Shown here: positions 1 through 31,598 of the stretch, piece after piece | Position numbering within the stretch: the first letter of the stretch is position 1 | Layout: every line of letters starts with the position of its first letter | Virus record (IMG/VR): IMGVR_UViG_3300048797_000097 | Span: 1-31,598 of that record | Origin: a virus | Length of the DNA stretch: 31,598 bases | Direction: 5' to 3' (one strand) | Notes under the pieces: model-generated | What the model saw: only the letters and a program-made list of their open reading frames with translations | What the model was told of the DNA's origin: nothing | Databases searched by the model: none | Program-made: the position numbers and the translations under genes

Positions 1-72
1 GAAAGCCTGGAGGTTGTTGTGGTCGGCGGCTTGCTGCTCTTGCCGATCCCGGAATTGCACGATGCGTTCCAC
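1..72 (-). CDS. 5' end of an unrecognised tail/baseplate-region gene (partial)
   Basis: Only the first 24 codons are inside the window. The start is GTG at 72, with a strong ribosome binding site (GAGGAG) on the minus strand at 81-86, inside the last codons of the tail protein I gene. The visible peptide begins MERIVQFRDRQ and is Gln/Asp-rich. Position directly after the gpI homologue suggests a tail fibre or distal baseplate component, but the fragment is too short to assign. Confidence 0.6.
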   Translation of the reverse strand, partial: MERIVQFRDRQEQQAADHNNLQAF

Positions 73-75
73 GGT

Positions 76-1422
76 CTAGCTCCTCGTCCATGAGCCCAAG
101 ATGATCGGGGTGCCCATAAAGAGCGGGCTCCCCATGCGTGCCGGCCGAAAGGTCCGGGAATTCACCCTGATCTTATCACGGCGCGACTTAGAGCGAACCA
201 CCGCGTCCAGGACGCGGTTTAGAGGCCGGCGGTCCCCGGCTAGAAAGTACATTCCCGGCCCCATAAACTCGCCCGCCGCCCACGCCGGGCGCTTGCTGCG
301 GACGGAGATGTCGAGCTCCGCCGTGAACCTTTCGATGCCGAAACGGTCATCCCCCATGAACGAGATGGCCTTGCGCCCCTGGAGCTGCCGGGTCGCGTCC
401 CGGAGGTAGACCACCTGATAGAGCCGGCGGGACGCGGTGGACGGGACGAAGAAGTCGTGTCCCATGAAGGACCCTAGCGACAACGGCAGGGCGCCGGAAA
501 AGACGCTGGCGGGAGCGAAGCCGTGCTCGGCCACGTGGTCCGGGGCGGAGTTGACCGGCGAGAAGGACGGCACGACCGGGAACAGGTGGACCAGCCGGTT
601 CGACGGCGGCGTGTCCAGCAAGTTGAGGGTGACCATCCGCTCCGCCGCCCGCGACGGCATGAAGAACTTGCCTAGGCCGAAGGGCTCGCCCGAAAAGACA
701 GCGTCCAGGCGCGGGACCGGCGGCAGATAAATCCGGTCAATGACGCCGCCCGTGTCCTGCGTCTCCCGCAGCCGGGTCAAATCAGTCGCCACCCCGCGAT
801 CCCAATAGATGGCGGCCGGCATCAACCGCTGGCCGGCGGCGGTCGGCAGCGGGCCGGCATATTGCGGGACGCCGGAAACGATGATCGGCAGCGTCGCCGC
901 TTTCCAGCCGCCCTCAGTCCCCGGCACGGTGAACAGGAACGGCTTGACGCTATCGCTTAGGAACTTGCCGGAGAAGTCATGCCAGAAGGTGCCCGTGCTG
1001 GTCCCACCCCGCACCCAATCGTAGAGCCGGATCTGCGGCAGGTCCCCCAGGGCGGCCTCGCGCTGCTCGCGCGTCAGTGACGGCGAGAGGTACGACTTGC
1101 CGGGCGGGGTGAACGCGCGGACCATTTCCGCGCCGAGGGCGCGGACGTAGCGGGTTATCCCGCCGAGCGTGCCCTTTTTCTGATGCATCTGGAAGCTGGC
1201 CAGGACTATGGCGCGCTTCTGCTCGACGCTCCAGTTCTCATCCCACACGTCAACCGACAGGCCCCAGGCCAGCCACGGCAGAAGCGCCGCCGGCATGTCC
1301 TTCGGCCGCCATAGCTCCCGCAGCGGGACGGGGAGCGGGTTGAGCCGCGCCCCGGTCGTGGCGACCACCGCCTTCTCAAAGGCGGTGGAATTGACCGGGA
1401 GAAGCGCCGCTTCGCCGCTCAT
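76..1422 (-). CDS. I: Phage tail protein I (P2 gpI-like baseplate protein)
   Basis: 448 residues. The N-terminal 120 residues follow the P2 gpI pattern closely: LLPVNSTAFEKAVVATT, then PLRELWRPKDMPAALLPWLA, then SVDVWDENW and a QKKGT turn. In P2, gpI sits at the baseplate rim and helps link gpJ to tail fibre components. The family is usually around 200 residues, so roughly 250 C-terminal residues are extra. They contain repeated motifs around SGEPFGLGKFFMPS, SGALPLSLGSFMGHDFFVPS and SFMGDDRFG, suggesting a repeated beta-rich module that could serve as a fibre attachment point (inference). The start overlaps the gpJ stop as ATGA (1419-1422), so translation is probably coupled. Confidence 0.9.
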   Translation of the reverse strand: MSGEAALLPVNSTAFEKAVVATTGARLNPLPVPLRELWRPKDMPAALLPWLAWGLSVDVWDENWSVEQKRAIVLASFQMHQKKGTLGGITRYVRALGAEMVRAFTPPGKSYLSPSLTREQREAALGDLPQIRLYDWVRGGTSTGTFWHDFSGKFLSDSVKPFLFTVPGTEGGWKAATLPIIVSGVPQYAGPLPTAAGQRLMPAAIYWDRGVATDLTRLRETQDTGGVIDRIYLPPVPRLDAVFSGEPFGLGKFFMPSRAAERMVTLNLLDTPPSNRLVHLFPVVPSFSPVNSAPDHVAEHGFAPASVFSGALPLSLGSFMGHDFFVPSTASRRLYQVVYLRDATRQLQGRKAISFMGDDRFGIERFTAELDISVRSKRPAWAAGEFMGPGMYFLAGDRRPLNRVLDAVVRSKSRRDKIRVNSRTFRPARMGSPLFMGTPIILGSWTRS

Positions 1423-2288
1423 GCAAGCTCCCCATGCCGCTTGACGGCGGCCGAGACGGTCAGAGTGTCAACTTGAAACGCCTCACGCGGGCCGCAGAAA
1501 ATGTCCTGGTCCATGCCAGTCAAGGCAGCGGAGTAGACGCCGGGGACCCTAGCAATCGAGACGACGCCCTGCCGCAGCAAGTCAATGCCGAGATAGCGGT
1601 TGGCCTCGAAGAACGCGTTAAACGCCGTTGTCGCCGCCCCTGTGACGACGGAAGCGTCCGGCCCCATGTAAAGCGTCAGAATGACGCCTAGGTTAAGCCG
1701 GTGGAGCGTCACGGGGACGACTGAGACGGCGTCGGTCAGAGGCCGCACGTCGTTGTCGGTGACCGCCCGGTAAACCGCTGACAGCATGTCCGGCGTTGGC
1801 CTTGGCTCGGCCCCGGACATCATGACGGTCACCACGACCTCCCCCGGCCGTGGCTGGTCCGTCGAAACGTCCCGGATGGTGACATCGGCCGTCATGGCGT
1901 GGAACTGGTAGGCGCCGTCCGGGCCAGCCACGCTGAACGCGTCCGGCGCGAGCTGAATGCGCTTGAGGAAGCGGGCGTCGTCCTCCCCCACCATGCGCAC
2001 GACGCCCCACAGGGCGGCGAGCTGGTCCAGGTCCGAGCCTTGCGAGAAGGCCAGCATGACGGCGCGGGCCGCGTCATTGACCCGCGCCCGGATCAACATT
2101 TCCCGGTAGGCGAAGACTTCAATGAGCTTGCGGGACGGCTCACTCTCTAGATCGACGACGCCGACGATCAGGGGGAAGCGCACGACCAGGTCATCCCGCG
2201 CCGCCTTGACTATGGCGTCAAAGGACAGGGTTTCGATGACGGACGGCGCCGGCAGGGACGCTAGGTCAATGATGGTTGGCGAGATCAT
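1419..2288 (-). CDS. J: Baseplate assembly protein J (P2 gpJ-like)
   Basis: 289 residues. Matches the baseplate J family: an N-terminal segment on Asp/Leu-rich targets, a middle part with RARVNDAARAVMLAFSQGSDLDQLA followed by LWGV, then GPDGAYQFHAM and VTVMMSGAEPRPTPDML, then the C-terminal half with AVYRAVTDNDVRPLTDAVSV. These are typical steps of gpJ homologues, which form the baseplate wedge with the gp25-like W protein. Length is close to the usual ~300. It is coupled by 4-base overlaps to W upstream and I downstream, in the standard P2 order V-W-J-I. Confidence 0.93.
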   Translation of the reverse strand: MISPTIIDLASLPAPSVIETLSFDAIVKAARDDLVVRFPLIVGVVDLESEPSRKLIEVFAYREMLIRARVNDAARAVMLAFSQGSDLDQLAALWGVVRMVGEDDARFLKRIQLAPDAFSVAGPDGAYQFHAMTADVTIRDVSTDQPRPGEVVVTVMMSGAEPRPTPDMLSAVYRAVTDNDVRPLTDAVSVVPVTLHRLNLGVILTLYMGPDASVVTGAATTAFNAFFEANRYLGIDLLRQGVVSIARVPGVYSAALTGMDQDIFCGPREAFQVDTLTVSAAVKRHGELA

Positions 2289-2701
2289 GGCGCAGCTCCC
2301 ACGGCCACGGTGGAGCCCGACAAGGTCACATACACCCGCCGCGCCCCTTCCACGGTGAAGTCACCATAAACGGCGCGCGGGCGATAGGCCCCGTCGATGT
2401 AGAACCCGAATTTCCCCAGGCGGGTGGCCTCCAGGACTTGGATCACCGCGACCCGATAGCGTGGCTCCCACTGCTCGATTGCGGCCGACATGGCCGTGAA
2501 GAACGGGGTTACCTCGGCAACCGTGATGTTCTTCCCCAAGAGGCCGGGGACCAGGGACCCGTACCACTCTCGCATCAGGCGCTCAGCGAAAGCCGTCGTG
2601 AAGAAGTCCCACATGGATTGCATCACGTGGTCCCACCCGGTGATGATCGACCCGGTGTTGCGGTCCAGCCCGACGCTTGGCGAGGTGAGGTCGGGTGTCA
2701 T
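2285..2701 (-). CDS. W: Baseplate wedge protein W (gp25/GPW family)
   Basis: 138 residues from ATG at 2701. A longer open frame extends upstream, but it runs through the gpV gene out of frame, and the ATGA overlap (2698-2701) marks the real start. The core SMWDFFTTAF, then AERLMREWYGSLVPGLLGK, then IEQWEPRYRV matches the GPW_gp25 signature, in which the reader frame is 'GERxMRxxYGSxL' followed by 'WEPR'. The protein is a wedge component connecting gpV and gpJ in P2-type baseplates. The usual family length of 115-140 is met. Confidence 0.88.
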   Translation of the reverse strand: MTPDLTSPSVGLDRNTGSIITGWDHVMQSMWDFFTTAFAERLMREWYGSLVPGLLGKNITVAEVTPFFTAMSAAIEQWEPRYRVAVIQVLEATRLGKFGFYIDGAYRPRAVYGDFTVEGARRVYVTLSGSTVAVGAAP

Positions 2702-3297
2702 GACGGCGTGTAGAACGCTGGCGGGACTGCGGACGTGGGCGGAGCCGGCGCCATCTGGTCCGCGATCAGCACCAAGTCGTGGACGACGCCATTGTGGGTG
2801 ATCTTGGCGGCCGTCGTGTGGACGACGCCGGCCTCCAGGCGGACCAGCGAGCCGGAGTGCTCGAATTGCAGGTAGTCCTTGGTCGCGGTGATGACAGCCT
2901 TGCCGACTTCCATTTTGACCAGATTGTCCGCGTGGGTGATCTTGACGTTGCCTACCGTGAAGACGTGCTGGTCCGGCTTGTCGCTCGGGCTCTTGTTCTG
3001 GTTGCTCCAGTGGAACGGGTGCGCGACCGCCTGCCCCCAATCCCCCATCGGGGACAGGATGCTCATTTGCTGGCCGACGCTTGGCGGGGTGTGATGCTTG
3101 AAGGCGCCGGCTATCTGGCTATAGGGGACCCATGGGCTCAAGAACGGGCCGCCGCCGCCGTCGCTGCTCTCCGCCAGCTTGAGCCGGACCAGGGCCTTCT
3201 TGGCGTCCACCTCGTGAACCGTCCCATGGCGCGCGACCGCCGCGAGCCGCCGCTCCAGCTCCCCCACGCGGGCGATCAACTCGACAATTTCCTTCAT
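2698..3297 (-). CDS. V: Baseplate spike protein V (P2 gpV-like)
   Basis: 199 residues. Starts with a short helix (MKEIVELIARVGELERRLAA), then an OB-fold region (residues ~23-95: RHGTVHEVDAKKALVRLKL, PFLSPWVPYSQ, PPSVGQQMSILSPMGDWGQAVA) and a repetitive beta-helix-like C-terminus (VGNVKITHADNLVKMEVG and onward). This is the organisation of gpV, the trimeric central spike that punctures the outer membrane. The gene lies first in the V-W-J-I block and is coupled to its neighbours by 4-base overlaps. Confidence 0.88.
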   Translation of the reverse strand: MKEIVELIARVGELERRLAAVARHGTVHEVDAKKALVRLKLAESSDGGGGPFLSPWVPYSQIAGAFKHHTPPSVGQQMSILSPMGDWGQAVAHPFHWSNQNKSPSDKPDQHVFTVGNVKITHADNLVKMEVGKAVITATKDYLQFEHSGSLVRLEAGVVHTTAAKITHNGVVHDLVLIADQMAPAPPTSAVPPAFYTPS

Positions 3298-4525: not shown

Positions 4526-5560
4526 TTAATCAGGAAGGTCCGAATTCAGGGTCCCGGTGAGGAGAACGCGCGGGCGGGTGCAATACTGGAGCGCGTTGGT
4601 CTGAACGTCGAAGTTCACGCCCTTGTCGTTTTCCATGGGGTATTGCTTGGCGTACAGGCGCCGCCCCATGGTGTTGACTGTCTCCAGGTAGTCCGCCGGC
4701 CCGTAGACCGTCCTAAACAGGTTGGGCACGCCGAGCGGGAAGATGTAGCACTCGTCCGGCTCGATGAAGTGCGTCCCGCCGACAAAGCCACGGTAGTTCT
4801 CGAAGACGACGCCGCCGAACGAGAAGCTGCCCCAGGTGGACGCGTTCGGGCCGACGTAGCCGTCCCGGAGGATCTGCGCTTCGGTCCAGTTGAGGAAGGT
4901 CTGGCGGACCTCCTGGTGGCCGATCAGGGCGTCGAAGAAGTCGTCGCCGCATAGCGCCCACAGGCGGGTGAAGGGCAGGCCGCCTAGTTCGGTGCCGATG
5001 GTGCGGACAAGGTTGGAGACGAACTGCCGCAGCCGGCCCATCGGATAGCTGGTGTTTTTCAGGTCAAAGTTGACCGGCGCCAGCTTGGCCACGTTGAACT
5101 CTGTGTAAAGGTTCAAGGTGGTCCCGTCCGCGTAAGTGACCAGCCCCTTGATGGCGCCGAGACGGTGATACTCCTCGGTGACATCGAAGGAATTGACGTG
5201 AAGCTCCCCGTGCTCCAGCACCTTGTCCATGACGGTTTCGAGCTGGCTCTCGGTACCGAACGCCCGCACCCCCTGGACCTCCTCAGCCATGATGGCGTCG
5301 TTGATCTCAAAGTGCGGGATGGTCAAGTTGCGCGCCCGGCGGCGGAGACGTTGAACCGTGGTTCCTGGTCCGCCGCGCGGGGTGGGCGGGATAAGGACGA
5401 GCTGGCCGTCCCTCTCCTCGATGACGATGGTTGTGACCGGCACGGACCCGGTGGAGAAAATCCCCAACTCGCCGACGCGTCCCGGCTTGAAGGGCAGGTT
5501 CGTGATGGCGTCGGTCAATGCGACGACGCCGAAGATGTTTGAGGCGAAGATGTCAAGCAC
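4526..5560 (-). CDS. E: Major capsid protein (lambda gpE family)
   Basis: 344 residues from GTG at 5560, chosen because GGAGG lies 8 bases upstream and the product MLDIFASNIFGVVALTDAIT begins like other gpE-family capsids; the frame continues to a TTG at 5575 that lacks such a site. Family hallmarks seen are LPFKPGRVGELGIF, then EERDGQLVLIPPTPRGG, the R-rich LRRRARNL segment, and GVRAFG further on. It forms the HK97-fold capsomers of the head. It follows the decoration-protein gene, as in lambda order D-E. Confidence 0.9.
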   Translation of the reverse strand: MLDIFASNIFGVVALTDAITNLPFKPGRVGELGIFSTGSVPVTTIVIEERDGQLVLIPPTPRGGPGTTVQRLRRRARNLTIPHFEINDAIMAEEVQGVRAFGTESQLETVMDKVLEHGELHVNSFDVTEEYHRLGAIKGLVTYADGTTLNLYTEFNVAKLAPVNFDLKNTSYPMGRLRQFVSNLVRTIGTELGGLPFTRLWALCGDDFFDALIGHQEVRQTFLNWTEAQILRDGYVGPNASTWGSFSFGGVVFENYRGFVGGTHFIEPDECYIFPLGVPNLFRTVYGPADYLETVNTMGRRLYAKQYPMENDKGVNFDVQTNALQYCTRPRVLLTGTLNSDLPD

Positions 5561-5600
5561 GGCCGAAGCCTCCAATGGTGGGCGCGAAGCCCTCTAGGGG

Positions 5601-6569
5601 TTAGCGGGCGACGATGCCCACGCTGGCGAGCTGCGCCATCTTGGCCGCCTTGCCGGCGTCATCCGTGACACTGGCGTCGTAGACCAGCTCTTTGGCGTTG
5701 ACCTCGCACAGGCGGGTGATGGCGGGCGTCTTCACGTCCACGTCCGTTGCGTCCACCCGGTAGATCAGGATGGCGTTGGCGAACTCGTCTCCATCCGTCC
5801 CGGTCAACGGAGACGGCCCGTATTGCAAGGTCGTGAAGTTCACCTGGACCAGGAAGGTGTCGCCGGGGACGAAGTTGGCCGAGCCGTCCGCCACGTTGAA
5901 GGCCAGCTCATGGGCGTAGGCGGTCCCGATGGTGCCGCCGGCCTTGACGATGCCGTCCGGATCGGTGACCTGGAATGTCCCCAGGCCGTTGGCCGGGACC
6001 GCGTGGCTGATAGTCACGTCGAAGCCATCCCCGACCAGCCAATCAGCGGAGCCGTGGGTGGCCGTGAACTTGATCTGTCCCACGTAGGCCACCCCGTCCG
6101 TAGCCGGCGCGAGGACGGTCCCGTTAGGATCATGAACCGAGAAGGTCCCGCCGCCGGCCGCCGGGACGGTGCAACGGACCTGATACGTCCCTTCAAGGAC
6201 CGTGCCCGCGTCGAAGGCCGCGCCGCCACCGCCGGTCAACGCTAGGGTGCCGTTGGCCGTGCTGCCCGGCGCGTGGATCAAGGCGCTGGCGACGGCGGCA
6301 AAGGTTCCGCCTATGACTTCAACCTTGTAGGCGCCGGACTTGACGCCGCCGCCGATGGCCGGCGAGGCAAGGGTGAAGACGCCGTTGCCGGTGTTGCCCT
6401 CGCCCGGCGAGACGATGGCAGCGGCCGAGCTGGTCAGTCGGCCGAGAAGTGTCCCCGGCTCCAGGATGCCGGAGCCGGCCACGACGATGATGTTGTCGCG
6501 GGAAAGGTGACCATCCTGCTCTGTCAGGATGAATGACGCCGCACGGCGTCCTTCGTTGAACTGCGTCAT
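5601..6569 (-). CDS. D: Head decoration protein (gpD-like) with an inserted double beta module
   Basis: 322 residues, against about 110-150 for simple gpD proteins. Residues 1-50 (RRAASFILTEQDGHLSRDN, then AGSGILEPGTLLGRLT) and 246-300 (TLQYGPSPLTGTDGDEFANA, ILIYRVDA, TRLCEVNAKELVYD) form the gpD core that caps capsid three-fold sites. Between them (56-245) lie four half-modules: two of the type 'GNG-F-L...SGAYKVEV' (58-89, 103-138) and two of the type 'GTFxVxDPxG...GDxFxV' (140-188, 196-245). The order N1-N2-C1-C2 suggests one module nested in another. The insert is probably exposed on the capsid surface (inference). ATG start at 6569. Confidence 0.85.
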   Translation of the reverse strand: MTQFNEGRRAASFILTEQDGHLSRDNIIVVAGSGILEPGTLLGRLTSSAAAIVSPGEGNTGNGVFTLASPAIGGGVKSGAYKVEVIGGTFAAVASALIHAPGSTANGTLALTGGGGAAFDAGTVLEGTYQVRCTVPAAGGGTFSVHDPNGTVLAPATDGVAYVGQIKFTATHGSADWLVGDGFDVTISHAVPANGLGTFQVTDPDGIVKAGGTIGTAYAHELAFNVADGSANFVPGDTFLVQVNFTTLQYGPSPLTGTDGDEFANAILIYRVDATDVDVKTPAITRLCEVNAKELVYDASVTDDAGKAAKMAQLASVGIVAR

Positions 6570-6632: not shown

Positions 6633-7070
6633 CTACGCCGCCTTATTCCCACCGTTAGCCTTATTACGCTTTTCGATCCGCCTTGCCCATGCGCCGGAAA
6701 TCGCCGCCGCCTCGGGCACTGCCGCGAGCGCACCCGTCCGGCTGGTGTCGCCGAACTCCGCCGTGCCCGCCGCCCGCTCCGCGATGGCGCCGATGACGGC
6801 GGTCTTGGGGATAGTCGCGAGCACCTTGCCGGCGGCCTCGACGCTCATGTCCGTGTCCATGGCCAGCGAAAGCGCGCTGGTTGCCCGGCCGGCGGCTTCG
6901 GGGTGGCTGGTAATACCCTTGATCCGGGCGCGCTCGGCAATGGCGCCGGCAGTTGCCCCGGCCTTCTCGCCCTCGGTGCGGCCCTCGGCGCGGGCGGTGG
7001 CCGCCGCCCCCGTCATGATCCGCTCATGGTCCGTGCGAAGGATGCTGTCCTCAGTGCTGGCGTTGGCCAT
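6633..7070 (-). CDS. Internal in-frame scaffold protein (Nu3-like)
   Basis: 145 residues read in the same frame as the protease, from ATG at 7070. An excellent ribosome binding site, GAGGAG, lies 8 bases before this ATG inside the protease gene. The product MANASTEDSILRTDHERI is Ala/Glu/Arg-rich and largely helical (TARAEGRTEGEKAGATAGA), as scaffolds are. In lambda the scaffold Nu3 is made by the same device, an internal start in gene C. Existence as a separate product is inferred from the ribosome binding site and the parallel. Confidence 0.72.
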   Translation of the reverse strand: MANASTEDSILRTDHERIMTGAAATARAEGRTEGEKAGATAGAIAERARIKGITSHPEAAGRATSALSLAMDTDMSVEAAGKVLATIPKTAVIGAIAERAAGTAEFGDTSRTGALAAVPEAAAISGAWARRIEKRNKANGGNKAA

Positions 7071-8003
7071 TGCGTTTCTCCTCGTAGGGGTTGGCCGGTT
7101 TCCTTGTCGCGGGCTCTGCGACATTTCCGCGACTATATCATCAAAGCTGCCCATGCGGTCAGCCATGCGATGGTCGATGGCGTCCTGCCCGTAATAGGTC
7201 CGGGCTTCCGTCGCCCTAATCGCGCCGGACGCCATGCGAAAACCACGCCCGGCCGCAACGGAATTGACGAACTCGTCGTAGATCGAGCTGACTTCCGCCT
7301 GGAGGTCAGCCTTCACGGTGTCCGGCAGCGGGCCGAACGGGTGCCCGTCCACCTTGTGCTTGCCGGCATAAATCAAGGTGGCAACTTGCCCCTTCTTCTC
7401 CATCTCGCCCGACACGTCCAGGTGCATCATGACGACGCCCACGGACCCGACCATGGACGTGGGCGAGACGACGATTTCATTGGCGGCAGCGGCGATGCCA
7501 TAGCCGCCGGAGGCTGCCACGTCATTGACCAGGGCAGTGACCGGCTTGTCCTCGCGGATGCTGCGGATCAGCGCGGCTAGGGAGTTGTTGCCGGACGCCT
7601 CGCCCCCGTAGCTCTCGATGTCGAGAAGGATGGCGTGGACCTCCGGGTCATTGGCCGCGTCGCGGAGCTGCGCCCCGATGCCCTCATAGGACACCAGCCC
7701 GGAGCTGTTGCCGATCCAAGCGCCCCGGTTCACCAGGGACCCGGCTATCGTGATGATGGCGACGCCATTGTGGGCCGGCGTCATGGCCCAATCTCGACCC
7801 TTGCGCCGCCGGGTCCCGATAAACTCGTTCATTGAAGGCCGCGCGGCCTCAGCCGCCTCCAGGTCCGCGACCACGGTGGCGTCGTCTACTTCGACGCCGA
7901 TCCGGTCCCGGATGGCCATGACGATGATTTCAGCCTTGAGCGGGTGGATCAACAGCGGCCGGTTAAGGACGCGATCCGCCACGTGGATCAGGACCCGGCT
8001 CAA
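6633..8003 (-). CDS. C: Prohead protease, S49/SppA-like (lambda gpC-like), with scaffold C-terminus
   Basis: 456 residues from TTG at 8003, which overlaps the gpW stop as TTGA; the frame also opens at a GTG at 8087 but that would lie inside gpW. The protease part contains the ESYGGEASGNNSL step, the nucleophile motif NDVAASGGYGIAAAA (Ser165) and a downstream YAGKHKVDGHP segment carrying the candidate general-base lysine (Lys215 or Lys217). This is the gpC/S49 family, which matures the portal and scaffold inside the prohead. Residues 312-456 are Ala/Glu-rich, form the scaffold and can also be made alone from an internal start. The C-terminal tail is basic (RRIEKRNKANGG). Confidence 0.88.
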   Translation of the reverse strand: MSRVLIHVADRVLNRPLLIHPLKAEIIVMAIRDRIGVEVDDATVVADLEAAEAARPSMNEFIGTRRRKGRDWAMTPAHNGVAIITIAGSLVNRGAWIGNSSGLVSYEGIGAQLRDAANDPEVHAILLDIESYGGEASGNNSLAALIRSIREDKPVTALVNDVAASGGYGIAAAANEIVVSPTSMVGSVGVVMMHLDVSGEMEKKGQVATLIYAGKHKVDGHPFGPLPDTVKADLQAEVSSIYDEFVNSVAAGRGFRMASGAIRATEARTYYGQDAIDHRMADRMGSFDDIVAEMSQSPRQGNRPTPTRRNAMANASTEDSILRTDHERIMTGAAATARAEGRTEGEKAGATAGAIAERARIKGITSHPEAAGRATSALSLAMDTDMSVEAAGKVLATIPKTAVIGAIAERAAGTAEFGDTSRTGALAAVPEAAAISGAWARRIEKRNKANGGNKAA

Positions 8004-8272
8004 CGGAAGAAGCCCGAGGTCGATGAACCGCCGGTCGATATGGCGTGCCGGCGGGATGGCTTGGCCACAGTGGAGAGCGCGTCGCACGCGGTTTGCAGCC
8101 GCGCTATCTGCGCTTCGAGGCTGGCCATATCGACGCGGGCGAAGGTCAGCCGGCGCGATACGCCGCCGGGCGAGACGTATTCGACGCTCTCCGCATGGGC
8201 GCCGGACAGGAGCTTGGTTCTCGCCGCCTGGAGTAGCGCCAGCTCCTCACAGGGACCGTTGACCACCGTCAT
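8000..8272 (-). CDS. W: gpW-like head-tail joining protein
   Basis: 90 residues, ATG at 8272 overlapping the portal stop as ATGA, with GGAG upstream. The pattern LLQAARTKLLSGAHAESVEY, then the GGVSRRLTFARVDMASLEAQ core, then IARLQ matches the lambda gpW family (68 residues in lambda), a small protein needed to stabilise DNA in filled heads and to receive FII. Here it follows the portal gene, whereas in lambda W lies between terminase and portal. The last ~20 residues are low-complexity and Ser/Gly-rich. Confidence 0.82.
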   Translation of the reverse strand: MTVVNGPCEELALLQAARTKLLSGAHAESVEYVSPGGVSRRLTFARVDMASLEAQIARLQTACDALSTVAKPSRRHAISTGGSSTSGFFR

Positions 8273-9963
8273 GGGGTTGCTCCGCCTTGCCCGGTGTCGG
8301 TGTTCGTGACCACGTCGGGCGGTGCCTCAACCGAGCCGGTTCTGCCGATAACCGCCGGCTCCGGCAGCTTGTAAAGCTGGCGCAGCTCGTACTCATGCGC
8401 CCGCTGGCGATAAACGTCGTCGATGTCCAGGCCGAGGTCGTTGGCAATGAATTCGGCGGGCACGACCCCCATCGCGTACCACTCGGCGTGCGATTTGGCC
8501 AGCTTGTAATCGTCGGCCTGAGGCTTGGGCGTCCCGCGCCACTCCGCCGCACATGCCGCCGCACGCTGCCCAACGAAGGCTTCGATGCCGCCCGGAAACG
8601 GGATGCCCTGGTCGGGTCCCCGCATGATTTCTTCCTCCAGCCACGCCTCATAGGCCGGCTGGCAGAAGGGCTGAATGATGTTGCGGCGGCGATACCGGGT
8701 GATCTCGAAAATCTCGCCCGAGGCCATGCGGGCGGAGCTGTAGTTCGCGTGCTCATAGTCCCCGGTGGCGCTCTCGTAAGTGAGCCCCAGGCAACGCGCC
8801 AGCTCCCGGAGAAGGTGGGCGGAGAATTCCTTGTAAGTGGTGTTCGGGTGCTCGTTCTTGTGAAATTCCATCTTCTGGCCGGGGAATAGGTGGGCGATCC
8901 GGCCGTTGAGGCCCACGTCCATGGTCGCCGTGTCGTACCACCCGGACTGAGCCTCGAACCACGCCTCGAACGGGCTCATGCCTTCCGCCCGCATCTTGCT
9001 CTGCTCTTGCGGGGTTAGCAGGCCCTCTACCGCGTCCTCGGTGGGCTGGTCCGGCGTTGTGATCGTCGCGGCGAACACCGTCTGAATGATCGACGCCATT
9101 AGGGTCGCGTCGGAAAGCTGATCGAATTGCTTGGCCACCTGGAGCGCCGGGACCAGGGGCGTGATGCCCCGCACGGTCCCTATGGCCCCGTCAAAGACGT
9201 GGACAACGCGCGGCCGGTTCAAGCCGTCCCGCGCCGGGACCTCATAGGTGGCGAAGCCTACCGACCCGGTCCCGAAGCCGGTAAAGGCGTCGGCGTTGGT
9301 GAAGAACGGGTCCACCTTGATAGCAAGATAGGAGACGGGGAAGCCGTCCTTGTCCATGCGGACGCCGCCTATCAGGTTGCGTAGAAGGTCCGTCCTTCGT
9401 GAGAGCCTCTGCGGCGGAATGAGCCGGACCTTGGTCCCGTATGTCGTCCCCGGCCGTTGGTTCCAGGGCAGCTCCGACAAGATCTCGCCCGTCGCGATGT
9501 AGCTCCTGAAAGCGGCGCCCTGCATCTGGCCGAAGTGCCGGCGCCCCTCGATGTCGCACTCGATGGGCGAGTTGGCCCATAGCGCGAAGCGGTTCTCTAC
9601 CAGCCGCGTCCAGTCCCCGGCGGTTTTCTGGTCCATGTTTAGGGTCTTGATGTCCGGGGTGCTTTTCAGCCGGAGCCCGATCCCCACGGTGTTGGCGACG
9701 GCCTGATCTATGGCGCCCGCGATCCACCCGGAATTGTGAATGATGTCCAGGGCGCGGGACGCGGCAAGGTCCCAATTCTGCGAAACCTCGGTGGACGCCT
9801 CACGAAGGAACGGGCGCCACTTGTTGAACAGGACGCCCCGGCCGCCTCGCATGTAGTCCGTGCGAACTCTCATTCGCTCGGGCGGCGTAGCGGCCGGGTT
9901 ACGCGGCCTCCCGCGTAGCGGCAGGATGGTGTCTCGGATGGTCGCCAGGATGCCCTTGGCCAT
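8269..9963 (-). CDS. B: Portal protein (lambda gpB family)
   Basis: 564 residues, ATG at 9963, close to the usual 500-560 of lambda-type portals. Recognisable steps: an N-terminal WDLAASRALDIIHNSGWIAG followed by AIDQAVANTVGIGL, then VENRFALWANSPIECDIEGR, GRMHFG-like QMQGAAFRSYIATGEIL, then ADAFTGFG-type variable region, then MEFHKNEHPNTTYKEF and LARCLGLTYESATGDYEHAN, followed by YSSARMASGEI. This dodecameric ring forms the DNA entry channel. It lies directly after terminase, with 8 bases between them. Confidence 0.93.
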   Translation of the reverse strand: MAKGILATIRDTILPLRGRPRNPAATPPERMRVRTDYMRGGRGVLFNKWRPFLREASTEVSQNWDLAASRALDIIHNSGWIAGAIDQAVANTVGIGLRLKSTPDIKTLNMDQKTAGDWTRLVENRFALWANSPIECDIEGRRHFGQMQGAAFRSYIATGEILSELPWNQRPGTTYGTKVRLIPPQRLSRRTDLLRNLIGGVRMDKDGFPVSYLAIKVDPFFTNADAFTGFGTGSVGFATYEVPARDGLNRPRVVHVFDGAIGTVRGITPLVPALQVAKQFDQLSDATLMASIIQTVFAATITTPDQPTEDAVEGLLTPQEQSKMRAEGMSPFEAWFEAQSGWYDTATMDVGLNGRIAHLFPGQKMEFHKNEHPNTTYKEFSAHLLRELARCLGLTYESATGDYEHANYSSARMASGEIFEITRYRRRNIIQPFCQPAYEAWLEEEIMRGPDQGIPFPGGIEAFVGQRAAACAAEWRGTPKPQADDYKLAKSHAEWYAMGVVPAEFIANDLGLDIDDVYRQRAHEYELRQLYKLPEPAVIGRTGSVEAPPDVVTNTDTGQGGATP

Positions 9964-12050: not shown

Positions 12051-12459
12051 TGACTTCACTTTCCAGCTTACGCCGCTCGGTTATGTCCCGCGTATAACGC
12101 ACGGGGAGCCCGTAAAGCTCGGCCCGCATGGTGGCTGCCAGCTCCAGGACGACAGCTTGCGCGTCCTCAACGGGGATTAGCTGCCGCTGCCGCTCCGCCA
12201 TGCGAAGCTCGATTTCCTTCGTCCGCGCGTCGGTGACCCGCGTAGCCGCCGCTGACTTCGACGCCTTCGCCAGCAAGTCCTCATAATAGGCGATGGCGCC
12301 CTGGACCAGGGCCACGATGGTCAAGGCCCCGTCCACGCGAATGATGTACTTTTCCTTGATCCGCATTTGCAGCCAGACGCGGGAGCGCCCGAGGAGCGCG
12401 CACCCCTGCTCTATGGTAAGCGCCTGGACAGGCTGCGCCGCCGGCTTGTCATCCGCCAT
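11956..12459 (-). CDS. Terminase small subunit (Nu1-like)
   Basis: 167 residues, ATG at 12459. It has an N-terminal winged-helix-like DNA-recognition segment (IEQGCALLGRSRVWLQMRIK, then YIIRVDGALTI), a central coiled-coil region (KSAAATRVTDARTKEIEL, then RMAERQRQLIPVEDAQAV) and a C-terminal part beginning RYTRDITERRKLES that probably contacts the large subunit. This is the Nu1 arrangement. The gene lies immediately upstream of the large subunit and overlaps it by about 95 bases. Its start overlaps the preceding small gene by 11 bases. Confidence 0.8.
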   Translation of the reverse strand: MADDKPAAQPVQALTIEQGCALLGRSRVWLQMRIKEKYIIRVDGALTIVALVQGAIAYYEDLLAKASKSAAATRVTDARTKEIELRMAERQRQLIPVEDAQAVVLELAATMRAELYGLPVRYTRDITERRKLESEVNDVLRRMADRAGSSAEALALGGGNLAAIGAA

Positions 12460-12616: not shown

Positions 12617-13417
12617 TCAAGTGGCCGGCGGTTCCGGTTGATTGGCGGCGCGGCGGGCGCGGGCTTCGATGCCGATCCGTATCTGGCGCTTGGTTTGCCA
12701 CGCCTTCTTGTACTCAACATCGGCAAAAAGCCGGGAGAAGCCAGTGATATGCTTCAAGCGCAGCAATTCCTCCGGTTCCATGCCTAGCTCATTGCAGATC
12801 GCGGCGTCGCTCCAGCCGCCCTCCAGCATGGCGAAGACCATATTCGACATGCCCTCAACCGAATGCTTGCCGCGCGCCCGGTTGTGCCGCACCGTCGCGG
12901 CCATGCGGTCATTGATGTCCCGGTCCAGGACGACTATCGGGACCAGCCCGAGGAGCGCCTTTTGCACGTCCGGGGAGTGCTTCGCCACGCTCCAGCGGTG
13001 AAATCCGTCGATGATTACATAGAAACCACTGGCCTCATCCCAAATAGTCACTATCGGCTGAGTATAACCGTCATGATTTACTGAATGATACAGTAGTTTC
13101 ATTTCCTGTGAGGCTACAGTGTTCGGATTATAGTCATTTGGACGGACTTTCTCGAGCGGGACCCACAAAATCCGGTCAATCGGCTGGTTTTTCAGCGGCG
13201 AGAGCTGGTGAAGGGCCTCACGGATGGCATTCAGGCCGGAGATCGGGTCCTCAAAGCCCTGTAGCAGGGCCTCCAGCGTGAAGCGCACCGTCTCCGGCAG
13301 CGGCGGCGTCCCCGGCGGAGCCTTCGGGGAGCTGCCGGCCGCCGAGGCTGCCCCGGCCTTTGCTGAATTGGCCGTGCGACGCGAAGAACGAGAGGAGTTT
13401 GGTTCCGTGGTAGTCAT
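12617..13417 (-). CDS. IbrB-like ParB/sulfiredoxin-fold protein
   Basis: 266 residues from ATG at 13417, or 223 from a GTG at 13288 that has GGAG just upstream. The ParB/Srx core is in the middle: WVPLEKVRPNDYNPN, then YTQPIVTIW, then the nucleotide-binding-type motif VIIDGFHRWSVAKH, then RMAATVRHNRARGKHSVEGM. A helical C-terminus follows (SDAAICNELGMEPEELLRLK). IbrB proteins are encoded next to IbrA in enterobacterial prophages, as here. The first ~43 residues are Ser/Ala/Pro low-complexity and overlap the IbrA end, so the shorter start is quite possible. A segment of the core (about 13005-13145) is markedly AT-rich. Confidence 0.75.
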   Translation of the reverse strand: MTTTEPNSSRSSRRTANSAKAGAASAAGSSPKAPPGTPPLPETVRFTLEALLQGFEDPISGLNAIREALHQLSPLKNQPIDRILWVPLEKVRPNDYNPNTVASQEMKLLYHSVNHDGYTQPIVTIWDEASGFYVIIDGFHRWSVAKHSPDVQKALLGLVPIVVLDRDINDRMAATVRHNRARGKHSVEGMSNMVFAMLEGGWSDAAICNELGMEPEELLRLKHITGFSRLFADVEYKKAWQTKRQIRIGIEARARRAANQPEPPAT

Positions 13418-26359: not shown

Positions 26360-26386
26360 TTTTGGCCCGTTGACGGATGGCCAAAA
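26360..26386. promoter_or_regulatory. Inverted repeat upstream of ParB-family gene
   Basis: TTTTGGCC (26360-26367) and GGCCAAAA (26379-26386) are perfect complements 11 bases apart, with TTGACG between them. Likely operator for an auto- or phage regulator. It covers the more distal ATG at 26377, another reason to prefer the start at 26476. Confidence 0.45.
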
Positions 26387-26415
26387 TTAGTTTTCAACTG
26401 GCCATTGCGCCTTGT

Positions 26416-26430
26416 GCTGGAAATTTCCAC
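26416..26430. promoter_or_regulatory. Palindromic site, copy 2
   Basis: Identical to the 15-mer at 19997-20011 (core TGGAAATTTCCA). It lies 46 bases upstream of the ParB-family start at 26476. See copy 1. Confidence 0.5.
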
Positions 26431-26475
26431 CTAACAGGAGCAAGACGTTTCCAAATGAAACCGAGAGGATCGAAA

Positions 26476-27369
26476 ATGAGCAACGTGCATGAAATCCGTG
26501 AAATCCCCCTGGTGGACATCACGGTCGGGTCGGATCGCAAGCGGGCGCTCCGCCCTGCCATCGTCACTGATCTGGCCGAGAGCATGAAGACGCAAGGCCA
26601 GCTCCAGCCCATCGGCGTCACCAAGAGCGACGCCGGAGGTTTCACCCTGGTCTTCGGCCGCCACCGCCTTGAGGCTGCCAAGAGCCTGGACTGGCCGGCC
26701 ATCCGCACCATTCTCCTGCCGGCCACCGAGGCCGACGACGCCACCTTGGCCGAGATCGACGAAAACCTGATGCGGGCGGACTTGACGCCGGCCGAGCGGG
26801 CCGCACACCACGCCGCCCGTGAAGTCATCTACCGGCGCCGCTACCCCGAGGCCGCACATGGTGGCGCTCGTCCGGGCGCCGGCCGCAAGGGCAAGGTCGC
26901 GGGCGCCAAGGCCAAGAAGGGCGGCAAGCGCGGCGGAGCGGACAGCTACGCCAAGGACGCGGCCAAGAAGACGCGGACCAGTGAGCGGTCAGTCCGGCGC
27001 GACGTGCGCCGTGGCCGGGCGGTGGTTGATGTCACCCGCGTTGCCGGAACCTCCCTGGACAAGGGCGAGGAGCTGGACGCCTTGAGCAAGCTGCCCAAGG
27101 CTACCCAGGACGAGCTTATCAAACAGGCGCAAGGCGGCCAGAAGGTCAGCGCCCGCAAGAAGGCCCTGGAGCTGGCGCCGCCCAAGGCGGACGCCGACGC
27201 GGTCGCCCGGCTGGTGATGGCGGTCGATGACCTCAAGGCGAGGATCGACAAAGAGCTGCCCGGCTTGGGCAAGGCGGCGCGGGTGCGCATCGCCAAGAAG
27301 CTCACCCGCATGGCAGCGGCGGTCATACCCGTGGACGCGGCCGAGGGGATGGCCGAAGCGGCGGAGTGA
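26476..27369 (+). CDS. ParB/RepB/Spo0J-family protein
   Basis: 297 residues from ATG at 26476, with GAGAGGA 6 bases upstream; the frame is open further upstream but poorly started. N-terminal ParB domain: EIPLVDITVGSDRKRALRPA, QGQLQPIGVTKS, then FTLVFGRHRLEAAKSL (the G-R-H-R-x-x-A motif), ending ENLMRADLTPAERAAH. A Lys/Gly-rich linker (GAGRKGKVAGAKAKKGGKRG) precedes a helix-turn-helix (YAKDAAKKTRTSERSVRRDV). The C-terminal part is helical. The arrangement is that of phage/plasmid ParB-like proteins and lacks the chromosomal ParB dimer domain. It may regulate genes or segregate DNA; the window also has a parS site, but that one fits host ParB. Confidence 0.85.
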   Translation: MSNVHEIREIPLVDITVGSDRKRALRPAIVTDLAESMKTQGQLQPIGVTKSDAGGFTLVFGRHRLEAAKSLDWPAIRTILLPATEADDATLAEIDENLMRADLTPAERAAHHAAREVIYRRRYPEAAHGGARPGAGRKGKVAGAKAKKGGKRGGADSYAKDAAKKTRTSERSVRRDVRRGRAVVDVTRVAGTSLDKGEELDALSKLPKATQDELIKQAQGGQKVSARKKALELAPPKADADAVARLVMAVDDLKARIDKELPGLGKAARVRIAKKLTRMAAAVIPVDAAEGMAEAAE

Positions 27370-28076: not shown

Positions 28077-28096
28077 CCACCTTTTCGAGGGTGCGA

Positions 28097-28128
28097 CGGG
28101 CCGCCGGGCTTCTCGGCGGCCCGTTTTC
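28097..28128 (+). terminator. Intrinsic terminator for the rightward genes
   Basis: CGGGCCGCCG (28097-28106) pairs perfectly with CGGCGGCCCG (28114-28123) over a 7-base loop and is followed by TTTTC. It ends the plus-strand block; the convergent minus-strand block stops right at its foot, so it may also hinder leftward read-through. Confidence 0.85.
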
Positions 28129-28336
28129 AGGCCGGCCGTGCGGTCCCGAAATTGTCCACCAGCTCCCGCGCCAGCTCAATCAGCCGGATAGGGTGCTCAT
28201 CAAGCTCGATGGTCGGGTCAATGCCGTGCGGAAACTTTTCCCCGGCGCCGTTAGCCACCATGGCGACCGGGACGCCCTGCCGGCGGAAGAAGCCCACCAG
28301 GACGGCCTCAACCGCCATCTCCTCGCGCCAGCTCAT
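28127..28336 (-). CDS. Small unrecognised protein after gcrA-like gene
   Basis: 69 residues, ATG at 28336 in an ATGA overlap with the gcrA-like stop. MSWREEMAVEAVLVGFFRRQ, then GEKFPHGIDPTIELDEHPIR and LIELARELVDNFG. Helical ends with a Pro/Gly-rich centre. No known family; co-translated with gcrA-like. Confidence 0.5.
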   Translation of the reverse strand: MSWREEMAVEAVLVGFFRRQGVPVAMVANGAGEKFPHGIDPTIELDEHPIRLIELARELVDNFGTARPA

Positions 28337-28848
28337 GACCAGATGCCGTGGAGCTGCCGGCGCTCCGCCCGCTCCCGCTTTTTGACTGGCTCATAGCAGA
28401 GCCGGGCGTGGCTCTCGCAATAGCCGCCGGGTCCTACATCGACTGATGGCTTCCCGCAGTCATGGTAGGGACGCTCACCGAGAGGGAACCGGCACGGGAT
28501 CGACCGGAACGCCCTTACGGGCACAGGGAGCCCCGCTGGCGCGTCTGCCGCCTTTCCCGCTACCAGGGCAGGGGCATTAGGCTTTTGACGCACTGCTCGC
28601 GGGCGTGGCGGGCGAGGCTTGCGTGGTTTCGGGGGGTTGACGCTCCCCGGCGCGCTCTTGGTCCCGAGGAGCTGCAATCCCGGCGTCCTATGGACCTTGC
28701 CGATGATCGCATTGCGGGAGAACAGCGGCACTCCGGCGTGATCCTTGATGACCGCCGCAATGCTCCCGGCGCTCTCCCCGGCCGCTAAGAGTGTGCGGAG
28801 CTGCGCAAGCCGGGCCTCATTCCAGTAGTCCACGCGCGGCCGGCTCAT
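28333..28848 (-). CDS. gcrA: GcrA-like cell-cycle regulator
   Basis: 171 residues from ATG at 28848. The N-terminal domain YWNEARLAQLRTLLAAGESA, then GSIAAVIKDHAG, then FSRNAIIGKVHR follows the GcrA pattern (W...R...L..L...G.SA..IA........RNAVIGKVHR) that binds GANTC DNA. A basic Pro/Arg linker (66-90) leads to a C-terminal element CRFPLG...CGK...YCESHARLCYEP, as in GcrA proteins that contact sigma-70 region 2. GcrA activates CcrM-dependent cell-cycle genes in alphaproteobacteria. The phage itself has no GANTC site, so this copy presumably acts on host promoters, as helper or competitor (inference). Its start overlaps a leader ORF that contains parS. Confidence 0.85.
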   Translation of the reverse strand: MSRPRVDYWNEARLAQLRTLLAAGESAGSIAAVIKDHAGVPLFSRNAIIGKVHRTPGLQLLGTKSAPGSVNPPKPRKPRPPRPRAVRQKPNAPALVAGKAADAPAGLPVPVRAFRSIPCRFPLGERPYHDCGKPSVDVGPGGYCESHARLCYEPVKKRERAERRQLHGIWS

Positions 28849-28886
28849 GGCCGCACCGTTTGTTTCACGTGAAACATTCCGTTCAT
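28845..28886 (-). CDS. 13-codon leader ORF coupled to gcrA-like gene
   Basis: ATG at 28886 has a strong ribosome binding site, AAAGGA, 6 bases upstream, whereas the gcrA-like ATG has none of its own. The ORF encodes MNGMFHVKQTVRP and its TGA overlaps the gcrA-like start as ATGA (28845-28848). Ribosomes are therefore probably delivered to gcrA-like through this ORF. The parS sequence forms its middle codons (M-F-H-V-K-Q). Confidence 0.6.
   Translation of the reverse strand: MNGMFHVKQTVRP
28861..28876. promoter_or_regulatory. parS: Perfect parS site
   Basis: TGTTTCACGTGAAACA is the exact 16-base palindromic consensus bound by chromosomal ParB (Spo0J-type) in most bacteria. Chance occurrence in 31.6 kb is below one in 100,000. 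It lies 12 bases upstream of the gcrA-like start codon. Likely bound by the host ParB, which would nucleate spreading/condensation and could also control gcrA-like expression. Confidence 0.9.
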
Positions 28887-28916
28887 GGTGCTTCCTTTCA
28901 TGGGACAGGTAACAAT

Positions 28917-28971
28917 TCCGGCGCCTGGAGATACAAAATCCGGCCGGCTGGTAACGCTCCGGCGCCTGGAG
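28917..28971. repeat. Paired 14-base direct repeats in the gcrA-like/primase gap
   Basis: TCCGGCGCCTGGAG occurs at 28917-28930 and 28958-28971, 41 bases apart, close to four helical turns. Each carries an imperfect dyad around GGCGCC. Downstream towards the primase gene are similar elements GCGTCACAATTT (28971-28982), CGGTCACACTTT (28992-29003) and CGGTTCACTTTA (29024-29035). These look like binding sites for one or two regulators controlling the gcrA-like promoter. Confidence 0.5.
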
Positions 28972-29054
28972 CGTCACAATTTCCCGCCGGACGGTCACAC
29001 TTTAGTTTTCAGCCGGAATGTGACGGTTCACTTTAACGGTCAGACCCTTCAACC

Positions 29055-31430
29055 TCAGAACGGTGCATCCTCTTTGTCAGTGCCGGCGGTGGGCGCTGGC
29101 GGCGCAGCGGTGTCAGTCCCGCCTACGACGGCGAGCTTGGGCTTGTCCGTCCGGGGTGGCGCGAAGCCTTTGACCCGCCGGCCGGTCAGCCAGACATAGG
29201 GCCTCTCGCGCATGATGACGTTCTCCGCGACCAGGACCTCCCCCGCCCGCTTGATCGCCATTTTGATGCGACCTTCAACTTTTTTCGGGTCTTCGCCGTC
29301 CGCCGCCTCCTCAAAGGTGAGCGTCGCGTATTGAGCCCGGACGTGCTTCCAATCGACAACCATCACAAACGCCGCTAGCTGGAGCGTCGGCGGCGCCGGG
29401 ACGCCGTGGTTCTCCAGCGCAAAGTAGACCGCCTTGAGCAGCATGTTCTCGCCGGCCGTCAGCTTCTTGCCGTAGTCCTTGCTGACCTTGTCCGCGTCAC
29501 CCATGGCGCCCGTGTAGGGCGTGATGACGACGCAACTGGTCACCGGGTCCCCGTCCGCGTCAACGCCGACCTGGACGCTCTTGAGCACAAAGCGCAGCCG
29601 CTCCCCGTCCTCCTCGTCCTTTTGCTTGGTCAGCTCCGCCACCCGGATAGGCCGGCGTCGATAGCGCGTCTCGCCTGTGATGTTGTCCTGGTAGGGCTCG
29701 CCGGCATCCTTGAGCCCTTCCTCCAGCTCACAGTCGATCACGCTGTCCAGGTTGGCGAACACGCTGGAGTGCCCGCGCGGCCGGGAGCCCGCCGCGTTCT
29801 TGTGATGGACGATCAGGACGGCGGCGCCGATGGCCTCGCTCAACCTGTCCGCCCTTGCGAGGATCTTGGACACGTCCTCGCTCGCGTTCTCGTTCGCTCC
29901 AGGCGTGGCCGCCGAATAGGTATCGACGATGAACAGCTCCAGGCGGTGCGCCGCGTAGACCCGCTGCCAGTGGGCCGCCTCCTCAATGAGCGCATTCGTG
30001 TGATCGTCGGACCCGTAGAGGTCGATCCGGGTGGGCAGCAAGACAAAGGGCACGTCGTCTTCCGGCTTCAAGCCGTTGTGACTGCGGTACGCCCGGACCC
30101 GCTTCTTGAGCCCCAGGCGCCCCTCGCCGGCCTGATAGAGGACCAGCCCGCGCCGGACCTTGTGCCCGAAGAAGTCGGTTCCCCTAGCGACCGCGAAGGC
30201 AATGTCCAGGGCTAGGAAGCTCTTGCCGGACTTGCTAGGCCCGACCAGCATGGCGCGCTCGTACCGGGTGAGCCACCCCTTGACCAGCCATTCGTGCTCG
30301 GCCGCCGGCCGGTCCATGTCATGCCACGGGATGGCGTGGAACCGGGAGCGCCAATCGAAGTCGGGGGACCAGACGACGCCCCGCTTGTCAGCCAGGGCGT
30401 ACAGGGCCTCAGTGGAGTTGCCGAGGCCGAGCCATTCCACAACGTCCCCCTTCGGGGGCAGATCAGGTCCGGCTAGAGGCGGCTCCGCCCGGCCGCCAAG
30501 CTCGAGGATGACGGCGGACGCGGCAATGCCCTGGAGGGACTTAGCGACGGTCACCGCATGGTCCCGGCCGGCGTAGACCGGGCGACCGTCCTCATGGAAG
30601 CGTGGCTTGCCGGTTTTCTTGTTGATAGCTTGCGGATCATTGTCCGAGAGGATGACAACCTTGGCCCCGGCGAACCACTTGACGTGATCCTCGCTCCAAT
30701 GGCCGGCGCCGCCCGCGTTAGTCGTCGCGGGGACGCCCTGGTCCCGGAGCGCGTCCACGCATTTCTCGCCCTCGACCACGAAGATGGTCGCGCCATCCTT
30801 GATGTCGGCTATCAACTCCGGGAGCCGGTAGGGGACGGGCACGACATCTTTCGTGTTCCACACCATGGCGCCGCCCTGGAGCGGCCGTCGCTGGCGGAAC
30901 GTCTTCCCCCTGCCGGCGCCCCGGTCATTGGGCTCGAAGCGGACAACCTGGAGCGTCAGCTTGCCGGCGGCGTCCAGGTAATCGAAGGACGCGACCTCAT
31001 GGTAATCAAGCGGCACGCCTGCCGGCCCGGTCGCCGGCCCCGCGCTGCCGCCCTGGTCCGGCTCGCCCTGGTCCCATGGCGGCGCCTCATCATGACCGTT
31101 GTCGGCCGGCGGCGCGGCAAGGAAGCTCCGGCTAGGCCCGCCCATGCGATCATCGGGCAGGAAGCCGTTGTCCATGAGCCAGTCAACGCGATCCTTCCCC
31201 TTCTTGCCCGTCTCTCGCTCAATGAAGTCCAGGGTCCCACCGCCCGCACCCTTCTCGCCGGGTGCCATACTGTGATCGACGAAGACGCCCTTCTTTACGT
31301 CCACCGACAAGCTGCCCTTGGTCCCCCATCGCAGCTCAGACTTGCTGCTCATGCGCCGGTTAGGCTCGCCTAGCAGGTGCTCGGCAACTTGCGGCATGAG
31401 CCGGGCGAAGTCGTCATTGTGGAGTGTCAT
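29055..31430 (-). CDS. Bifunctional primase-helicase (Toprim + RecA-like ATPase)
   Basis: 791 residues, ATG at 31430. Residues ~30-95 form an N-terminal module (SELRWGTKGSLSVDVKKG, FVDHSMAPGEKGAGG, TLDFIERETG) typical of phage primase fusions. A Toprim-like part follows with IFVVEGEKCVDAL (217-229) and VVILSDND (258-265), metal-binding acidic residues. The helicase/RecA-like half has Walker A GPSKSGKS (397-404), Walker B LFIVDTYS (499-506) and VLIVHHKNAAGSRPRGHSS, a RepA/AAA_25 sensor element. It should unwind DNA and make primers at the phage fork, with the SSB of 18025-18513. Confidence 0.88.
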   Translation of the reverse strand: MTLHNDDFARLMPQVAEHLLGEPNRRMSSKSELRWGTKGSLSVDVKKGVFVDHSMAPGEKGAGGGTLDFIERETGKKGKDRVDWLMDNGFLPDDRMGGPSRSFLAAPPADNGHDEAPPWDQGEPDQGGSAGPATGPAGVPLDYHEVASFDYLDAAGKLTLQVVRFEPNDRGAGRGKTFRQRRPLQGGAMVWNTKDVVPVPYRLPELIADIKDGATIFVVEGEKCVDALRDQGVPATTNAGGAGHWSEDHVKWFAGAKVVILSDNDPQAINKKTGKPRFHEDGRPVYAGRDHAVTVAKSLQGIAASAVILELGGRAEPPLAGPDLPPKGDVVEWLGLGNSTEALYALADKRGVVWSPDFDWRSRFHAIPWHDMDRPAAEHEWLVKGWLTRYERAMLVGPSKSGKSFLALDIAFAVARGTDFFGHKVRRGLVLYQAGEGRLGLKKRVRAYRSHNGLKPEDDVPFVLLPTRIDLYGSDDHTNALIEEAAHWQRVYAAHRLELFIVDTYSAATPGANENASEDVSKILARADRLSEAIGAAVLIVHHKNAAGSRPRGHSSVFANLDSVIDCELEEGLKDAGEPYQDNITGETRYRRRPIRVAELTKQKDEEDGERLRFVLKSVQVGVDADGDPVTSCVVITPYTGAMGDADKVSKDYGKKLTAGENMLLKAVYFALENHGVPAPPTLQLAAFVMVVDWKHVRAQYATLTFEEAADGEDPKKVEGRIKMAIKRAGEVLVAENVIMRERPYVWLTGRRVKGFAPPRTDKPKLAVVGGTDTAAPPAPTAGTDKEDAPF

Positions 31431-31598
31431 CGACGGGCCTCGCGCTTGGCGATAAGCCGGCGAATGTCATCCTGGAGCGGCTCAATCTTGGCCAGCATGT
31501 CGGCCGCCAGCTTGAAGCGGTTGGCCCGGCGGAGCTGGCCGGCATCCGGTGGACTGCCGAACACGGATAGCCGGAGACTTTCCGTCAACTCCAGGCGG
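31427..31598 (-). CDS. C-terminal end of an unrecognised gene (partial)
   Basis: The final 56 codons of a minus-strand gene whose start lies beyond the window. Its TGA overlaps the primase ATG as ATGA. The visible end (LELTESLRLSVFGSPPDAGQ, then ADMLAKIEPLQDDIRRLIAK, REARR) is charged and helical. Function unknown; a replication accessory is possible by position. Confidence 0.6.
   Translation of the reverse strand, partial: RLELTESLRLSVFGSPPDAGQLRRANRFKLAADMLAKIEPLQDDIRRLIAKREARR

Follow-up and report, generated by a model that had tools for sequence, protein, structure and literature searches.

What accounts for the complete lack of GANTC in a viral DNA of more than 30 kb? GANTC is the sequence read by CcrM and GcrA (PMC7403470, PMC3667746). 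The DNA considered here, called the window and meaning the whole 31,598-bp viral record, is linear, 65% GC and probably a fragment. A first-pass annotation had claimed that the window contains no GANTC at all, and a string search bears this out: the count is zero on both strands, GAATC, GATTC, GACTC and GAGTC each being absent. A first-order Markov model predicts 125.7 sites, 100 dinucleotide shuffles average 125.2 (sd 9.3), and a maximal-order Markov model predicts 47.6. Among 256 patterns of the form XYNZW tested in the window GANTC is the sole absentee, the next-lowest pattern having an observed/expected ratio (o/e) of 0.39. When synonymous codons were shuffled within each of 26 genes (23.2 kb), 37.6 +/- 5.0 sites were expected and the lowest count among 500 shuffles was 22, so that the codon-aware expectation is nowhere near zero. 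GANTC is under-represented beyond composition and codon use, as a site subject to restriction avoidance should be. The sites GATC and GAATTC had both been described as frequent, which is true of GATC (145 copies) and not of GAATTC (only 6).

The lack of GANTC is genuine, far outside what chance would give, and was brought about by silent codon choice. Selection on GANTC can be read in the codons themselves, and in all three frames. Serine following Asp or Glu is encoded by AGY in 28 of 28 cases in the window genes; at other positions serine is encoded by 123 AGY and 228 TCN codons (TCN in 228 of 351, about 65%). Arg and Gly codons of the form xGA never precede an NTC codon and occur 80 times elsewhere. 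Likewise ANT codons, which are common elsewhere, are never found in the context xxG-ANT-Cxx. The strong selection proposed at first pass is thus supported by the codon-aware null and by these codon footprints.

What kind of phage is this, and what might its host be? The genes assigned by profile matches are as follows.

76-1422, minus strand: tail protein (Tail_P2_I; Pfam PF09684)
1419-2288, minus strand: baseplate J-like protein (Pfam PF04865)
2285-3040, minus strand: baseplate wedge gp25-like protein (Pfam PF04965)
2698-3297, minus strand: baseplate protein V-like (Pfam PF04717)
4526-5575, minus strand: major capsid protein E family (Pfam PF03864; aligned with relatives)
5601-6569, minus strand: head decoration protein D-like (Pfam PF02924)
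6633-8087, minus strand: S49 peptidase, capsid protease (Pfam PF01343)
8269-9963, minus strand: lambda-family portal protein (Pfam PF05136)
9972-12059, minus strand: terminase large subunit, gpA type (Pfam PF05876/PF20454)
11956-12459, minus strand: terminase small subunit (PHROG 57)
12617-13417, minus strand: ParB-like protein, adjoining the PAPS-reductase-like gene (Pfam PF02195; PHROG 2159)
13251-14450, minus strand: PAPS-reductase-like/DUF3440 protein (profile matches)
14447-15097, minus strand: small putative DNA methyltransferase (weak PHROG DNA-methyltransferase matches)
15094-15975, minus strand: another SAM methyltransferase, class-I fold (Pfam PF13649)
15935-16783, minus strand: second ParB-like protein (profile matches)
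18025-18513, plus strand: single-strand DNA-binding protein (Pfam PF00436)
26377-27369, plus strand: third ParB-like protein (profile match)
28333-28998, minus strand: GcrA-like protein (Pfam PF07750, E 7.5e-16; likely start about 28848)
29055-31430, minus strand: AAA_25 replication helicase/primase-like protein (Pfam PF13481)

The gp25-like gene probably starts further in than listed, since from its listed start it would run into the neighbouring gene. Positions 12617-16783, directly upstream of the terminase, resemble an operon: a ParB-like gene, the PAPS-reductase-like/DUF3440 gene, the small DPPW methylase, the other SAM methylase and the second ParB-like gene. The PAPS-reductase/ParB pair looks IbrA/IbrB-like. 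In many relatives a ParB-DNA methylase fusion occupies the position of the second ParB-like gene, and in one related phage record (L006, 1669-3162) an ORF has the final part of a DNA methylase domain fused to a PALP (pyridoxal-phosphate) enzyme domain. The small putative methylase has its DPPW motif first and DPCCGLG last, the order of the CcrM-type beta class. We considered it as a phage GANTC methylase and rejected it, because it is not similar to the enzyme with which phage phiLM21 methylates GANTC.

Relatives were found through the gpA-type terminase large subunit, in Rhodobacterales and Hyphomicrobiales genomes and in IMG/VR, and these point to a host in one of the two orders. A megablast of the window's first 25 kb matched no known phage, and the portal and GcrA-like proteins, used as single-sequence queries, returned no relatives. 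Does the lack of GANTC recur among the terminase relatives? Seven related phages or prophages have at most one site in 13-57 kb.

L006, 13 kb: 0-1 GANTC
L159, 19 kb: 0-1 GANTC
Viral record (L142, L070, L143), 56.7 kb: 0-1 GANTC
Loktanella MAG contig, 55.8 kb: one GANTC
Hyphomicrobiales MAG contig, 38 kb: zero GANTC
Rhizobium subbaraonis prophage (L166-L168), about 37.5 kb: one GANTC, with six in the flanking 5.4 kb
Pararhizobium haloflavum prophage, about 43 kb: zero GANTC

A clean split of the relatives into a zero class and a host-like class proved too simple, since their o/e values spread between 0 and about 0.5. Of the related temperate phages in CcrM-positive hosts, most retain 10-50 percent of the expected sites. 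In the 68-row terminase tree the zero class comprises 11 rows, some of them short contigs, and requires 8 changes, every one of them imposed by branches with good support; judged from the terminase sequences, GANTC loss is therefore convergent. A Thalassobacter prophage record (G026) has a 20-kb stretch without GANTC (L153) and another with 8 sites (L154); it may be a mosaic in which only some of the modules are purged.

Might the window simply mirror the low GANTC content of its hosts' DNA? Alphaproteobacterial genomes under-represent GANTC, and host coding regions avoid it (PMC3973325). Eighteen chromosomal segments of 11-20 kb, drawn from bacteria that harbour related prophages, gave a first-order o/e of 0.14-0.52 (mean about 0.27) and a maximal-Markov o/e of 0.36-0.72 (mean about 0.53). 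The fair baseline is the hosts' own depletion rather than composition, and since the hosts are themselves GANTC-poor, the expected count in the window falls to about 25-33. The first-pass estimate of roughly 100 sites from composition is of the order given by dinucleotide models (about 125) but is too high by this fairer baseline; zero is still far lower (Poisson about 1e-11 or less, a hand estimate). Inherited depletion also fails to explain the sharp ends of the GANTC-free blocks inside two host genomes. In P. haloflavum the block stops at a tRNA-Phe gene (L164:3592-3667), the next GANTC lying within that gene at L164:3607, and in R. subbaraonis there is a similar step at the prophage edge. 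We regard inheritance of a host-like level as highly improbable.

The first-pass annotation thought the loss the more striking in a phage with its own GcrA-like gene. Are the two connected? The window protein scores 59.3 bits against PF07750, above the gathering cut-off of 26.9, and 46.7 bits against NF050816, the NCBIfam equivalog for the GcrA cell-cycle sigma70 cofactor, far below the cut-off of 280; as judged by these profiles it is divergent from the cell-cycle orthologue. Among 80 GcrA-bearing viral contigs none is GANTC-free (o/e 0.11-0.65), and among 66 contigs of a second set, selected for similarity to the window GcrA, one has at most one site; the two sets overlap in part and together exceed 100 contigs. 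The one exception, L258, has 1 GANTC against 62.6 expected and bears the closest relative found for the window GcrA (39% identity). The window shares a phage-borne GcrA homologue with the GcrA-bearing phiCbK-like phages (PMC3556154), where the Caulobacter phage CcrMagneto keeps 22 GANTC in 30 kb. Conversely, no GcrA was found in the GANTC-free virus records L006, L008 and L070. GcrA carriage does not predict GANTC loss, GcrA bearers in both sets otherwise retaining host-like levels, and we dropped it as the link; the phage GcrA would be a separate host-takeover gene.

Is the loss specific to GANTC? The annotation had said so, and this is wrong. Against the codon-aware null, 11 words are purged from the window: GANTC and about ten other Type II palindromes of six bases.

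CCGCGG: 2 observed, 34.4 expected
CCCGGG: 0 observed, 18.6 expected
GTCGAC: 0 observed, 16.5 expected
GACGTC: 1 observed, 18.7 expected
GGGCCC: 0 observed, 14.5 expected
CGATCG: 1 observed, 13.2 expected
CAGCTG: 0 observed, 10.1 expected
GAGCTC: 1 observed, 11.5 expected
AGGCCT and CTGCAG: absent or nearly so

GANTC is the most extreme of these words. Under the same null some palindromes are over-represented, GCCGGC (81 against 47.5) and GGCGCC (48 against 31.8), and their near neighbours are purged. With GANTC counted, the number of purged palindromes is 2-13 in each of eight GANTC-free genomes and mostly 0-2 in thirteen GANTC-keeping relatives. One of the thirteen has 9: it retains 62 GANTC of 92 expected, and its purged words include GTAC, GGCGCC and CTNAG. 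When equal 11-kb slices are compared, the GANTC-free genomes have more of the other purged palindromes (p = 0.002, without correction for kinship), an effect carried by the window, L159 and L006. Across relatives, in equalised slices, GANTC o/e is uncorrelated with an overall palindrome index (rho -0.06). For the Hyphomicrobiales prophages GANTC is almost the sole purged word in equal slices, with 2-6 purged words over the whole genome; the R. subbaraonis prophage, with 2, comes close to a GANTC-only purge. The purge thus has two flavours, a broad one as in the window and one nearly confined to GANTC.

We lean, with some reserve, towards the view that the loss of GANTC is restriction-site avoidance carried to completion, that is, selection to evade sequence-specific cleavage. 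Each new GANTC would be a possible cut site at entry or in lytic replication, silent substitutions would remove it, and DNA without the site would escape cleavage. Restriction avoidance is supported by a count of zero against 38-126 expected, by the convergent loss, by the co-purged palindromes, by the near-universal presence of CcrM in the host orders, and by the relative that keeps GANTC and has purged GTAC, GGCGCC and CTNAG instead; such differences in the purged set would follow if the enzymes encountered differ from phage to phage. Against it stand the nearly GANTC-only purge of the Hyphomicrobiales prophages and the want of correlation with the palindrome index. Moreover at least the integrated members are temperate, and site elimination has been described as characteristic of phages that are not temperate (PMC6286503).

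The main rival, also raised at first pass, is that the phage escapes control by CcrM and GcrA: a GANTC anywhere in its genome, once methylated or hemimethylated, would recruit CcrM, or GcrA with sigma70 RNA polymerase, and so keep the phage transcribing or replicating in step with the host cell cycle. Both proteins that read the site are present in every sampled host, the host coding regions avoid it, as already mentioned, and the nearly GANTC-only purge of the Hyphomicrobiales prophages is what such escape would produce. One would think, however, that sites near promoters would then be the ones removed, and the purge runs throughout coding sequence. Nor is the window's loss restricted to GANTC, and most of the temperate relatives in CcrM-positive hosts keep part of their sites. 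The phage GcrA-like gene, this reading's main prop, fails, GcrA-carrying phages having host-like GANTC levels. We think escape from cell-cycle control rather unlikely. Of the two options first offered, nuclease escape is the better match: GANTC comes first among the purged Type II palindromes and has been removed from coding sequence by silent changes, although no GANTC-cutting nuclease was found in the host orders.

Where would such an enzyme come from? A CcrM-type RAMA protein is present in 14 of 14 sampled hosts of relatives, and all host genomes searched for GcrA have it; CcrM occurs in 245 of 245 Rhodobacterales genomes and 242 of 249 genomes of Hyphomicrobiales (the order of Pararhizobium). 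A second CcrM-like methylase is found in none of the 245 and in at most three of the 249. Ordinary HinfI-type restriction-modification pairs therefore look rare in these orders, as such a pair would need that second methylase. CcrM-like short methylases were also followed in 115 alphaproteobacterial genomes; four adjoin an ORF of about 180 aa with a PD-(D/E)XK domain, and three are DpnII-like two-methylase systems. The ORF, found in small-genome alphaproteobacteria, matches Pfam PDDEXK_11, and with its methylase makes a candidate restriction-modification pair at these places.

L351, 2449-4276: candidate methylase/PD-(D/E)XK pair
L352, 3818-5101: candidate methylase/PD-(D/E)XK pair
L355, 3932-5391: candidate methylase/PD-(D/E)XK pair
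L357, 3280-4625: candidate methylase/PD-(D/E)XK pair

An ORF of 53% identity adjoins a similar methylase in Neisseria gonorrhoeae records. No member of the family occurs in the genomes searched from the two host orders (391 and 397, 788 in total), no endonuclease neighbour of CcrM relatives was seen on the alphaproteobacterial plasmids examined, and the two Gram-positive CcrM relatives examined belong to DpnII-type two-methylase systems. Searches of the host orders for the PD-(D/E)XK family and for second CcrM-like methylases thus yielded no GANTC-cutting enzyme, which with the rarity of restriction-modification pairs argues against restriction avoidance. If cleavage is the agent, the enzyme would belong to another family, be paired with an unrelated methylase, or depend on CcrM for self-protection.

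Could the purge be a record of enzymes in other hosts that the phages once visited, with no GANTC enzyme in the current host? The fruitless search in the host orders is in keeping with past or broad-host exposure, as are purged palindrome sets that shift from relative to relative. Point mutation would recreate the sites, though, and 0-1 site in several genomes that are placed apart therefore suggests that the pressure goes on; we find exposure elsewhere quite improbable as the explanation. A different source would be the phage itself: a phage-encoded nuclease specific for GANTC, or Gm6ANTC, might degrade the host chromosome, the phage having purged its own sites. Some GANTC-free relatives do have HNH-like genes. 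Yet a comparison of 8 GANTC-free with 22 other genomes (fragmentary, with simple ORF calls) turned up no gene family common to the former and missing from the latter. The best is the AAA_25 helicase, in 4 of 8 clustered GANTC-free genomes and 1 of 22 others, possibly a replication-module link to GANTC loss. We consider a phage-borne nuclease very unlikely.

Phages are well known to eliminate Type II sites, completely or nearly so in roughly a tenth of viral genomes (PMC6286503, Rusinov et al. 2018). The window resembles those dsDNA phages in losing orthodox Type II palindromes. It differs in that at least some members of its group are integrated temperate phages, in that CcrM, an orphan methylase of the host, recognises this very site, and in that a cognate endonuclease was not found in the host-order searches. 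GANTC depletion itself has precedent in pelagiphages and in a GANTC-poor proviral region of SAR11, where past restriction was raised by the authors (PMC9516812). There too depletion partitions the phages of CcrM-bearing alphaproteobacteria. The window is no SAR11 phage, to judge by its 65% GC and its terminase relatives in Rhodobacterales and Hyphomicrobiales. In contrast to the pelagiphages, the present group is high in GC, has a gpA-type terminase, has 0-1 site in up to 57 kb, and has purged other palindromes. Phages phiLM21 and vB_OspM_OC, which encode their own GANTC methylases (PMC5537653, PMC7139368), also cope with the GANTC mark of CcrM hosts, and phiLM21 exemplifies the opposite solution, keeping 53 GANTC in 50 kb that it can methylate; the window has no sites, and its small methylase is unrelated.

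What does the loss of GANTC mean for these phages? That some alphaproteobacterial phages are depleted in GANTC was already known, and the window is an extreme case. We found no literature report of total GANTC elimination in scattered, terminase-related Rhodobacterales and Hyphomicrobiales phages and prophages, with sharp block ends in CcrM-bearing chromosomes. The present comparison also separates GANTC loss from the phage-borne GcrA. If restriction avoidance is the correct reading, a host whose chromosome is CcrM-methylated at GANTC could tolerate a GANTC-cutting enzyme, and new phage DNA, replicated faster than a cell-cycle-limited CcrM could methylate it, would be exposed to cutting. One may go a step further and suppose that lone GANTC-cutting nucleases, having no methylase of their own, are shielded by CcrM. 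The cell-cycle mark would then also serve immunity by labelling self DNA, and temperate phages would answer by deleting every GANTC. This is a speculative proposal, to which we assign a low probability. It does raise a testable question: is the CcrM mark, in these alphaproteobacteria, also a self-mark for DNA cleavage?
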